Shown: positions 18,000 to 27,524 of the stretch, piece after piece
Layout: the number at the start of each line of letters is the position of its first letter
How positions within the stretch are numbered: the first letter of the stretch is position 1
NCBI RefSeq assembly: GCF_005405065.1
Contig: NZ_BJDI01000003.1
Location: 248,001 to 312,000 of the forward strand
Direction of reading: 5' to 3'
Length of the DNA: 64,000 nucleotides
From: Lactiplantibacillus nangangensis
GTDB lineage: Bacteria > Bacillota > Bacilli > Lactobacillales > Lactobacillaceae
Made by a program: the position numbers and the translations under genes
The notes under the pieces: generated by a model
What the model was told of the DNA's origin: nothing
Seen by the model: the letters and a program-made list of their open reading frames with translations, nothing else
Database searches by the model: none

Positions 18000-18170
18000 G
18001 CCGAGTTAGCGCAGGCTGGGCTGGATGGCGCTCAGTGGTGAAATTTCACTTAGTTGGGGAACTTTCCCGGCTTAGTGAAAGCCCGTCTTGTGAGACCGTA
18101 TTTTGGCTCACAAACGTGGCCACCACGTTCCAGCGTCGATCCAGACCAGCCGGAGCGGCAATTGAACGGC
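18000..18170 (+). repeat. Structured element, family 1, copy 1 (before tgt)
   Basis: The main helix arms 18014-18032 and 18132-18151 pair almost completely. Inside are the conserved segments CTCAGTGGTGAAATTTCACT, ACTTAG (right arm GCTTAG), the hairpin TTGTGAG-ACCG...TTTTGG-CTCACAA and CGTTCC. Border sequences are TTAGC on the left and CCGGAGCGGCAATTGAAC on the right, with an outer GCCG/CGGC pair. It ends about 8 bp before the weak tgt -35. Confidence 0.75.
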
Positions 18171-18178
18171 TCCCATGC

Positions 18179-18207
18179 TGGTTCAGTGGCTGAAATCGTG
18201 CTATGAT
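18179..18207 (+). promoter_or_regulatory. Probable tgt promoter (extended -10)
   Basis: TATGAT at 18202-18207 is preceded by TG one base upstream (TGCTATGAT). The -35 (TGGTTC, 17-bp spacing) is weak, as is usual for extended -10 promoters. Confidence 0.6.
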
Positions 18208-18249
18208 ATTGAAAGTTTAGATAAGGAATTAACGGAGGCAATAAATCAT

Positions 18250-19392
18250 ATGGAACCGGCAATTAAATACCGATTAATTAAGAAAGAAAAACATACAGGT
18301 GCGCGTTTGGGTGAATTGATCACCCCACATGGCACTTTCCCAACGCCAATGTTTATGCCCGTGGGAACTCAGGCAAGTGTGAAATCATTGGCACCAGAAG
18401 AGCTGGATGCGATGGGAGCAGGCGTCATCCTTTCCAATACCTATCACTTATGGCTCCGTCCTGGTGAGCAGATCGTTAAAGAAGCTGGTGGCTTACATCA
18501 GTTTATGAATTGGAAAAAAGGTATTTTGACCGATTCTGGTGGTTTCCAAGTGTTCTCATTGGCGAAAAATCGCGATATTACTGAAGAAGGGGTCCATTTT
18601 AAGGATCATCTGAGTGGGGCGAAGCGCTTCCTCTCACCTGAAAAGGCGATTCAAGTAGAAAATGACTTAGGACCAGATATTATGATGAGTTTGGATGAAT
18701 GCCCACCATTCTTCGAAAGTTACGAATATGTCCGCAATTCAGTCGCCCGGACGAGTCGTTGGGCGGAACGCGGCTTGAAAGCCCATCAACATCCCGACTA
18801 TCAAGGGTTATTTGGCATCGTTCAAGGGGCTGGCTTTAAGGATTTACGTGAACAGAGTGCCAAGGATTTGGTCAGCATGGACTTTCCTGGTTACTCGATT
18901 GGTGGCTTGTCTGTTGGGGAATCTAAGGCGGAGATGAATCACGTGCTCGATTTCACGACGCCATTGTTGCCAGAGAATAAGCCGCGTTATTTGATGGGTG
19001 TTGGTTCAGCGGATGCCTTGATCGATGGCACGATTCGTGGCGTCGATATGTTCGACTGTGTTTTGCCAACCCGAATCGCTAGAAATGGGACTTGTATGAC
19101 GTCACACGGCCGTTTAGTCGTTAAGAATGCCAAATATGCGCATGACTTTACGCCGTTAGATGACAACTGTGATTGTTATACTTGCCGTAATTTCTCGCGT
19201 GCTTATATTCGACACTTGATCAAAGCTGACGAAACGTTCGGATTACGGTTAACAAGTTATCATAACTTATATTTTCTTTTGCACCTGATGCAACAGGTTC
19301 GCCAGTCGATTATGGACGATAACTTACTAGAATTCCGTGAAAACTTTTTTGAAATGTACGGCTTTAACAAGAAAAACGCTAAAAACTTCTAG
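18250..19392 (+). CDS. tgt: Queuine/archaeosine tRNA-guanine transglycosylase (bacterial Tgt)
   Basis: Exchanges guanine-34 of tRNAs with GUN anticodons for preQ1. 380 residues. Active-site motifs: [16 protein letters not shown], with the general base/nucleophile region [14 protein letters not shown]. The C-terminal zinc site is [18 protein letters not shown] type (three Cys and a His). The ATG at 18250 follows GGAGGCAATAAATCAT and gives the typical [15 protein letters not shown] start; a longer upstream frame runs back into the structured element and is not coding. yajC follows 72 bp downstream, the usual order. Confidence 0.97.
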
Positions 19393-19464
19393 GGATACTA
19401 GTAATTTATAGCGTAATTTGTTAAAGTTAAAGATAGTCAAACATAGATTAGGAGCGATATTCAA

Positions 19465-19890
19465 ATGGGTCAACTAACATCAATTATCTTTATCGTGGTT
19501 ATGTTCGGGTTCTTGTACTTCTTCATGATCCGGCCACAACGTAAACAACAACAACAACATCAACAAATGCTCAGCAAAATCAAACGTGGCGACAAGGTTA
19601 CCACGATTGGTCGTTTGCATGGGGTCGTCGACGAAGTTAATGAAGCTGAAAAGACAGTGACATTAGACTGTGACGGCATCTTCTTGGTCTTTGATTTAAG
19701 CGCCGTTGCTAAAATTGCGCCTAAGGCCGATGCAGCTGCTAAAGCAACTGATGCTAAGCCAGCCGACGCTGACAAAGCTGCAGATGATTCAGCTGATACC
19801 GAAGAAAGCCATATCGACTCAGCTGCCAGCAACGTTGACAGTGCTGCCGAAAGCGCTGATAGCGCCGCAGATGATTCAGAAGCAAAATAA
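19465..19890 (+). CDS. yajC: YajC, preprotein translocase accessory subunit, with acidic Ala-rich tail
   Basis: 141 residues. One N-terminal membrane helix (about 5-22, IIFIVVMFGFLYFFMIRPQR) and the compact cytoplasmic YajC domain (MLSKIKRGDKVTTIGRLHG). The last 50 or so residues are an Ala/Asp/Ser-rich tail built from repeats such as DSAA, longer than in most YajC proteins. It works with SecDF in other bacteria; no secDF gene lies next to it here. The ATG follows AGGAGCGATATTCAA. A strong terminator follows, whose sequence is duplicated 830 bp downstream. Confidence 0.93.
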   Translation: MGQLTSIIFIVVMFGFLYFFMIRPQRKQQQQHQQMLSKIKRGDKVTTIGRLHGVVDEVNEAEKTVTLDCDGIFLVFDLSAVAKIAPKADAAAKATDAKPADADKAADDSADTEESHIDSAASNVDSAAESADSAADDSEAK

Positions 19891-25785: not shown

Positions 25786-25787
25786 CT

Positions 25788-27131
25788 ATGACCGCAAGTT
25801 TCAATGTTTTCCAACTGCAGCCGTTTTTGATGCAAGCACTAGCGGATATCAACTTTAAAAAGCCGACGAAAGTCCAAGAAAAGTTGATTCCAGTAATTAG
25901 TGCCGGCCGCAGCGTGATTGGGCAATCGGCTACTGGGAGTGGAAAAACCCACACCTTCTTGTTGCCAATGCTCAACAACTTGAATCCAGATGAACGACGC
26001 GTTCAAGCAGTGATCACCACGCCAAGTCGTGAACTCGCTTATCAGATTCAAGAAGCGGCTAAACAATTGATCCAGCACAGTCCGAAGGCGTTACACATCG
26101 GCTTATATGTTGGTGGGACCGATAAGCAGGACCAAATTGACAAATTAAATCGGCACCAACCTCAATTAGTGATTGGGACGCCAGGGCGGATCTTAGATTT
26201 GATTCGCTCACAAGCGTTGAACATCCATACGGCGCAACAATTAGTTGTCGATGAAGCCGATATGACGTTAGATTTGGGCTTCTTAAATGTCATCGACCAA
26301 ATTGCCGGCCGGATGCCAGCTGATTTACAAATGTTAGTGTTCTCGGCGACGATGCCACAAAAATTAACGCCATTTTTGAAGAAATATATGAATAATCCAG
26401 TCATGGAAGAAATTCCAGTTGAATCCGTCATCAGCCCGACGATTGACAACTGGCTCATTTCGACAAAGAGTCATGACAAAAATAGTGTGATCTACAAGCT
26501 GTTGACGATTGGTGAGCCCTATTTGGTCTTGATCTTTGCCAATACAAAGGAACGGGTTCAAGAAATTGCCCGTTATCTCAAGGGACAAGGGATGACTGTC
26601 GCGATGATTCACGGGGATATCAAGCCACGTGAACGGAAGCGGGTCATGCGTGATGTGCAAAACTTGAAGTATCAATTCGTGGTGGCTACTGATTTGGCCT
26701 CACGGGGAATTGATATTGAAGGGGTCTCACATGTCATCAACGATGATATTCCAAATGACTTGGAATTCTTTATTCATCGGGTCGGCCGGACGGGTCGTAA
26801 TGGCATGCCAGGGACGGCGATCACGCTTTACAGCCCTGGTGAAGAAGATAAAGTTTCTGCGGTTGAAGCGATGGGTATCAAATTTAAGCCCAAAGCCATT
26901 CGTGACGGTGAAATCGTGGATTCATATGACCGTAACCGCCGTGAAAAGCGGGGGGCTCGGCATGACAAACTTGATCCTTCACTGATTAGTTACGTGAAGA
27001 ATGCCAAAAAGAAAGTTAAACCTGGCTATAAGCGTCGTATTCGGACTAAGATTTCGGATAAGGCGCGGATGGATCGGCGTATCGAACAACGTGCTGCTGC
27101 TCGGAAAGCGCGTAAAGATCGTAAGGGCTAA
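25788..27131 (+). CDS. DEAD-box RNA helicase (CshB-like)
   Basis: 447 residues. All core motifs are present: Q motif region ending PTKVQEKLIP, motif I QSATGSGKTH, Ia TPSRELAYQ, Ib GTPGRILDL, II VVDEADMTLD, III VFSATMP, V TDLASRGIDIEG and VI HRVGRTGRNG. A basic C-terminal tail (KKKVKPGYKRRIRTK onward) likely binds RNA. Length and tail resemble the cold-shock helicase CshB. It is coupled to the nrnA-like gene, pointing to RNA turnover or ribosome assembly. The ATG follows AAAGAGGTTTAACT. Confidence 0.92.
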   Translation: MTASFNVFQLQPFLMQALADINFKKPTKVQEKLIPVISAGRSVIGQSATGSGKTHTFLLPMLNNLNPDERRVQAVITTPSRELAYQIQEAAKQLIQHSPKALHIGLYVGGTDKQDQIDKLNRHQPQLVIGTPGRILDLIRSQALNIHTAQQLVVDEADMTLDLGFLNVIDQIAGRMPADLQMLVFSATMPQKLTPFLKKYMNNPVMEEIPVESVISPTIDNWLISTKSHDKNSVIYKLLTIGEPYLVLIFANTKERVQEIARYLKGQGMTVAMIHGDIKPRERKRVMRDVQNLKYQFVVATDLASRGIDIEGVSHVINDDIPNDLEFFIHRVGRTGRNGMPGTAITLYSPGEEDKVSAVEAMGIKFKPKAIRDGEIVDSYDRNRREKRGARHDKLDPSLISYVKNAKKKVKPGYKRRIRTKISDKARMDRRIEQRAAARKARKDRKG

Positions 27132-27148
27132 TTTTAGTTGAATTGGTG

Positions 27149-27185
27149 CAAACGCAATCTCTCACTTTTGAGGTTGCGTTTTTTG
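27149..27185 (+). terminator. Helicase operon terminator
   Basis: AAACGCAATCTC pairs with GAGGTTGCGTTT around TCACTTTT, followed by a T-run. Confidence 0.87.
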
Positions 27186-27343
27186 GCCATAATTGATTAG
27201 ATTGCATACTTAGTTAAGCTATCGATATAGTTATTTTGATGGCTAATAGGCAAGAGATTGAAACATTTAGACAATGATGTGGATGGAGGTTCTATCTGAA
27301 TCAGTAGCCTGCCATTTGAATGTTTTCAACAATGTTGAAGCTT

Positions 27344-27524
27344 GTGGTCGACTGGATTTAGCCGTGAGGTCGGTTCGTTTAGGGCTCAGCCGTGGCATTT
27401 GACTTAGCGCGGTGGGCTTGCCGCGGTTAGTCAAAAATCGGTTTTTGAGACCGCTTTTTGGCTCAAAAACGATTCACAGCGTTCCAGCCCTAAACGAACC
27501 GACCGGTAGGCGGCAATGAACCAC
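27344..27524 (+). repeat. Structured element, family 1, copy 3 (before alaS)
   Basis: The arms 27368-27386 and 27486-27504 (19 bp) pair perfectly but share almost no sequence with the other copies. Conserved inside: GCTCAGCCGTG, the second helix TTTGACTTAGCGCGG / CCGCGGTTAGTCAAA with facing TTAG segments, the hairpin TTTTTGAG-ACCGCTTTTTGG-CTCAAAAA, and GCGTTCC. Borders are TTAGCCGTGA and CGGTAGGCGGCAATGAACC, with an outer GTGGT/ACCAC helix. It ends about 22 bp before the alaS -35. The 27186-27343 stretch upstream holds nothing I recognise. Confidence 0.8.

Follow-up and report, generated by a model that had tools for sequence, protein, structure and literature searches.

The structured elements found in a 64,000-nucleotide stretch of Lactiplantibacillus nangangensis DNA (hereafter the window) belong to a family of mobile intergenic repeats present in many copies. 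The repeated module, of ~160 nt, forms a three-way junction (four-way in some copies) from two helices, one outer and one inner, and two hairpins. The three elements of the initial annotation, described as sharing short segments in a fixed order, were all recovered with these segments in place, and the boundaries assigned to them by the covariance model are given in Table 1. Their folds reached z values of -8.0, -9.8, and -8.2 for copies 1, 2, and 3 (200 mononucleotide shuffles each). The outer helix arms had been considered unrelated in sequence; this is correct among these three copies, but genome-wide the arms fall into subfamilies, and several host copies have an outer arm that differs little from that of copy 3. 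Copy 3 lies directly upstream of the promoter-like sequence of alaS. A further module, the divergent neighbour of copy 1, was aligned with variants from Levilactobacillus, and the stretch beyond its 3' end resembles, by eye, the inverted repeat of a young subfamily found in two other species.

Table 1. Repeat modules and an associated end motif in the window (position 1 is its first nucleotide).
Feature	Position	Strand	Context	CTCAG junction	Score to model
Inverted-repeat-like stretch (GCTAGTTGA..AATTGCC)	17399..17416		Beyond the 3' end of 17417-17608; judged by eye		
Longer-variant module, one extra hairpin with the same loop type	17417..17608	-			51.9 bits, E 1.8e-9
Module copy 1	18005..18162	+	Gap before tgt (Pfam)	18031-18035	157.3 bits
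Module copy 2	23346..23509	+	Gap before dinB (dinB-type polymerase, Pfam)	23374-23378	151.6 bits
Module copy 3	27357..27517	+	Between the DEAD-box helicase gene and alaS	27378-27382	166.8 bits

The motif pattern was present in 29 copies in the host genome, compared with 2 for the reversed pattern. The search of genomes with a covariance model, which had been proposed as a check, detected further homologues: at least 95 model matches at E up to 1e-3 in the host (a lower bound, with 150 of 826 candidates scored) and at least 150 in each of L. songbeiensis (G060) and L. dongliensis (G061). Under stricter filters, matches were obtained in 23 of 60 genomes, namely the host, 18 of the 20 other genomes of its genus, three of other genera of the family and one outside the family, this last match being weak (E 3.5e-4). 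Two relatives in the genus of the host, G001 and G002, gave no match in the 60-genome search. When 148 genomes were drawn from the order, matches were found in four, the host included. In the pattern scan of named genomes, nearly all of the 80 loci among the matches listed belonged to Lactiplantibacillus or Levilactobacillus, and longer variants with an extra hairpin of the same loop type were observed, many of them in Levilactobacillus. The relatives L. pingfangensis (G011) and L. daoliensis (G009) belong to the genus of the host. No match to copy 2 was obtained by blastn in plasmid and phage records; two pattern matches in viral contigs and one in a delta-proteobacterial MAG were not confirmed by the model.

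To analyse the fold, 39 host copies were aligned by sequence alone, two of the 41 extracted copies being left out (one false match and one duplicate). The best-conserved stretches of this alignment were the junction and the loops (CTCAG, CTTAG, GACCG..TTTGG, and CGTTCCAGC). RNAalifold predicted 55 pairs, with two-sided compensated changes in 36 of them. A second set of 150 copies, taken from named records, was fitted to the model; 93.4% of its cells were paired, compared with 73.3% after shuffling, and pairing dropped to 31–45% when the partners were slid by 1–3 columns. Two-sided changes were observed in 51 of the 55 pairs, a count reached in 0 of 500 shuffles; this larger alignment leans toward the model, and the sequence-only alignment agrees with it. 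The earlier proposal that the structure is under selection is thereby upheld. The pairing was also strand-specific, since G-U cells outnumbered A-C cells (474 vs. 168), and the sense strand was lower in energy than its complement in 37 of the 39 host copies (38 with DNA parameters). A strand-specific fold suggests the recognition of single-stranded DNA or RNA, and RNA and folded single-stranded DNA fit this evidence alike.

The position of the modules relative to genes was examined in 177 modules (191 matches minus 14 that were cut at locus ends or fragments), of which 158 were intergenic. The downstream gene was on the same strand in 78 cases and on the opposite strand in 86, the remaining 13 modules having no downstream gene in the locus. 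A leader or riboswitch was discarded because an orientation bias was absent. Copies antisense to both neighbouring genes kept the sense-strand fold (55 of 63) almost as frequently as the sense copies did (56 of 60). With the absence of a gene-orientation bias, this does not support a simple cis role in the transcripts of neighbouring genes. Terminators were found in one of 26 wide spacers between paired modules, compared with 0.4 in shuffles.

The modules were arranged in relation to each other in a particular way. Of the neighbours lying no more than 700 bp apart in the named loci, 54 were divergent, none convergent and 4 tandem; the corresponding counts in the host loci were 31, 0, and 3. 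The host loci comprised 82 modules (89 matches minus six antisense echoes and one cut at the end), of which 67 were paired and 15 single. Copies 2 and 3 were among the single ones, no partner being detected within 700 bp in the host loci. The gap between paired modules of the host loci was either 31–47 or 190–438 bp. Two close divergent pairs could also be read from the coordinates in a genome of another genus (G034).

Mobility was evident in L. songbeiensis and L. dongliensis, where a 16-bp inverted repeat bounds the short-gap pair. This repeat had 198 and 192 matches per genome, compared with 4 and 2 for the reversed-pattern control. The unit of this young subfamily, of ~395 bp, consists of a terminal repeat, a leftward module, a short spacer, a rightward module and a second terminal repeat. 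Identity over 26 aligned units was 0.87 and 0.90 for the modules, 0.85 and 0.90 for the terminal repeats, and 0.62 for the spacer. Exact target duplications of 7–11 bp flanked 18 of 39 bounded elements, a set made up of units with two modules as well as shorter forms with one, while shuffled flanks gave duplications of at least 7 bp in 0.07% of the cases; the other 21 elements had none. Both the terminal inverted repeats and the target site duplications of MITEs are present, the duplications having been shown for the young subfamily only. Most host copies carry a second, weaker end motif, and a target duplication was sought around the wide-gap host pairs, with no convincing one in most of them.

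Empty or short sites were found in relatives at three loci in total. At one of them only 38 bp separate the helicase stop codon from a fixed point before alaS in L. pingfangensis, compared with 409 bp in the host, and most relatives had much shorter gaps at two others. A terminator resembling one located directly after queA in L. daoliensis and in the genome G020 lies in the wide gap next to copy 1, so copy 1 and its divergent neighbour probably result from two insertions on either side of native DNA. The host and these same two genomes seem, by eye, to carry different module types in one gap at a further locus. The initial annotation had opposed a structured RNA or folded-DNA site to an ordinary repeat or a terminator. 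Selection on the fold stands, and the modules are not terminators, but the choice between structure and repeat is a false one because the family, in a way that annotation had not foreseen, is also mobile, with terminal repeats and target duplications in the young subfamily, and its modules lie in divergent pairs: its members are repeats that retain their fold.

Constraint was evaluated at loci shared between species, for which 70 of 96 host modules were placed in loci. In eleven places the host and L. pingfangensis or L. daoliensis carried modules at the same locus, two of these pairs (L015/L269 and L022 left/L285 left) being set aside as probably replaced. At the remaining nine loci the modules were 0.80–0.93 identical, compared with 0.73 ± 0.06 for unlike pairs, the weakest case being L010/L268 at 0.80; these loci were picked for having modules in both genomes, which biases the values toward conservation. 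Over the 80 bp located 5' of the modules, identity was 0.47–0.57 in eight loci and 0.83 in one (null, 0.50 ± 0.03). Identity on the 3' side was 0.48–0.96 and higher at several loci, as expected since the genes are so near. At the nine loci, 29 pairs had changed on both sides and were still paired (17 double transitions and 12 double transversions), and 30 changes were one-sided, 12 of them still paired. Over all eleven pairs, 70 two-sided changes kept the pairing, 16 one-sided changes kept it, and 21 were one-sided with one broken. With sites changing independently, our own estimate from the paired identities gives about four two-sided changes. The unpaired positions of the modules were 0.75–0.94 identical at the nine loci, and a neutral stretch beside a near-random spacer should not remain ~90% identical. 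Homogenization among copies is disfavoured because shared-locus copies were more alike than other pairs.

The modules may be the folded subterminal ends of a MITE-like, non-autonomous transposon family, a reading that we prefer tentatively and to which we give slightly less than an even chance. Each strand would carry one sense module beside its 3' end. While single-stranded during transposition or replication, it would fold, and this fold would be recognized by a machinery provided in trans. Contacts would be made through the fixed loops, with the stems acting as a mere scaffold, so that any paired sequence would serve; the divergent layout would result from the subterminal position of the modules. 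The terminal repeats (198 and 192), the target duplications, the divergent layout, the modules and terminal repeats of young units being more alike than their spacers, the sense bias, seen in antisense copies too, and the empty or short sites argue for this reading. Counted against it are the restriction of demonstrated target duplications to the young subfamily, the elements of that subfamily without one (21 of 39), the host pairs with wide gaps, mostly lacking a recognizable one, the wide-gap pair of copy 1, probably formed by two insertions, and the result of the search for a transposase. A Y1 (RAYT) transposase (PF01797) gave no match in the host, while it was found in 5 of 14 control genomes, which rules out a REPIN/RAYT system in the host genome; five intervals, three of them wide divergent pairs and two delimited by terminal repeats, were inspected by eye for an autonomous parent or a transposase, and ordinary genes only were recognized. 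Moreover, the shared-locus copies remain conserved, although decay would be expected of a dead insertion, and transposition alone leaves the retention of the fold in old inserted copies unexplained. Alternatively, the modules could serve the cell in place, whatever spread them, with selection keeping each copy folded, for instance as sites for structure-specific proteins shaping the nucleoid or as absorbers of supercoiling. This function is in our opinion unlikely. The conservation of the modules at the nine shared loci beside randomized 5' flanks in eight of them, the 29 two-sided changes kept paired beside the 30 one-sided ones, and the lack of preference for gene direction, as for a chromosome-wide structural role, are consistent with it, but sites are gained and lost between species, G001 and G002 of the same genus have no match, the conservation comes from loci chosen for modules in both genomes, and two further pairs looked replaced rather than conserved.

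An action at the RNA level, in which the transcribed modules would, for example, stabilize read-through transcripts, be targeted by a ribonuclease or make up a small RNA, appears distinctly unlikely. The divergent pair would offer one sense module to either direction of transcription, and the sense-strand fold with its tolerance of G-U pairs suits an RNA, as does the slightly stronger sense bias of copies sense to both neighbours (-7.7 kcal/mol vs. -5.7 in antisense copies, p = 0.05). By contrast, promoters were not in excess in the 26 wide spacers (8.80 vs. 8.75 in shuffled sequences, with a crude home-made scoring matrix), antisense copies keep the fold, and Rfam has no match. The stems could also be unselected if template switching across a hairpin copied one arm onto the other, producing paired changes in one step, which we consider very improbable. 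One 3-bp stem block differed in 9 of 13 near-identical unit pairs (92–95% identity) when 2.6 were expected, and 12 of the 29 two-sided changes at shared loci were double transversions, both as arm copying would produce. Nevertheless, the switching of this block could equally come from exchange of hairpins between copies, or from relaxed sequence with a kept fold, and arm copying predicts neither the preference for the sense strand over its complement nor the identity of the unpaired positions beside randomized flanks. A more speculative and on balance doubtful extension is that a mobile repeat has turned into a distributed structural system, with folded sites diversified in sequence, about a hundred on each chromosome and every one kept by selection where it landed, the stems drifting freely, and the copies thus remaining foldable yet poor recombination partners.

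The family behaves like structured repeats of the MITE type already known from other bacteria (BOX, ERIC, NEMIS, and REPINs); what we regard as new is a fold that branches, modules doubled in divergent orientation, covariation of this depth and copies conserved where they stand. Bacterial intergenic repeats are usually seen as decaying parasites known by their sequence, while in this family the fold outlasts the sequence. Since copies can be traced locus by locus between species, whether the element or the host is the reason for their retention becomes directly testable, and a single fold represented by hundreds of natural variants offers material for identifying its binder. The EFAR repeats of Enterococcus faecalis, of ~170 bp, fold into stem-loops whose termini are unrelated in sequence but paired, the arms being target-derived. 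They are alike in these unrelated but paired arms; set against this description, the variable helix of the present family differs in being flanked on both sides by conserved motifs.

With respect to named families, the initial annotation had offered no match, and none emerged. Rfam (4227 families) gave no match at the curated threshold in the window, a permissive scan of 17950-27600 gave one weak and unrelated match, and eight loci with longer variants gave PyrR only, outside the modules. Among the matches listed from open-access full text, none described the family. BOX, RUP, and SPRITE of Streptococcus pneumoniae occur in many intergenic copies for which an extensive RNA structure is predicted and are thought to be MITE-like, BOX being modular (PMC3049150); that study favours parasitic elements, and the word "compensatory" is absent from the portion of its text that was found. 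The present family is likewise high-copy, intergenic, structured and MITE-like but, compared by description, it differs in its branched fold with two-sided stem changes and in its divergent module pairs. REPINs are described as high-copy inverted doublets with a spacer, predicted to fold in single-stranded DNA or mRNA (PMC3116915), and REPs as sequences of 20–40 bp (PMC3733652). The doublets, the copy number and the predicted fold are shared with our family, whereas, judging from the parts of these sources consulted, the ~160-nt module and the host without a Y1 match set it apart from REPs, which are tied to Y1/RAYT transposases. Finally, Correia/NEMIS, ERIC, and other bacterial MITEs are presented in PMC2229807 as short non-autonomous elements of ~100–200 bp that end in inverted repeats, duplicate their target and give base-paired transcripts, most being long stem-loops and many having TA ends. 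The young unit shares the terminal repeats and the target duplications but, compared with these elements as described there, differs in combining two branched modules in ~395 bp with duplications of 7–11 bp.

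Different module types occupied the same gap upstream of alaS, the longer four-way variant being found in relative G007 and the three-way module in the host. The alaS upstream region in the window also contains promoter-like sequence and a leader that, by the motif AGTGGTACCGCG, we take to resemble a T-box; no Rfam family was detected in this leader at the gathering score.

Coordinates of the features (window or locus L)
Feature	Position	Context
Promoter-like sequence and T-box-like leader	window 27540-27790	alaS
Four-way module	L188:1013-1199	G007, alaS locus
Module pair and spacer	L022:2019-2590 / L285:1471-1845	shared locus
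Tandem modules	L011:2462-2621, 2645-2803	direct
Terminator-like hairpin and T run	window 17838-17871	between modules 17417-17608 and 18005-18162

At a locus where the host and a relative both carry modules (L022/L285), the two modules were retained, and the intervening spacer differed in sequence and in length (235 bp vs 48 bp, respectively). The tandem modules, separated by 23 bp, have the 3' half of the module in common, and this pair is apparently a local duplication. Hairpins resembling the terminator-like hairpin beside module copy 1 were observed immediately 3' of queA in relatives G020 and G009.
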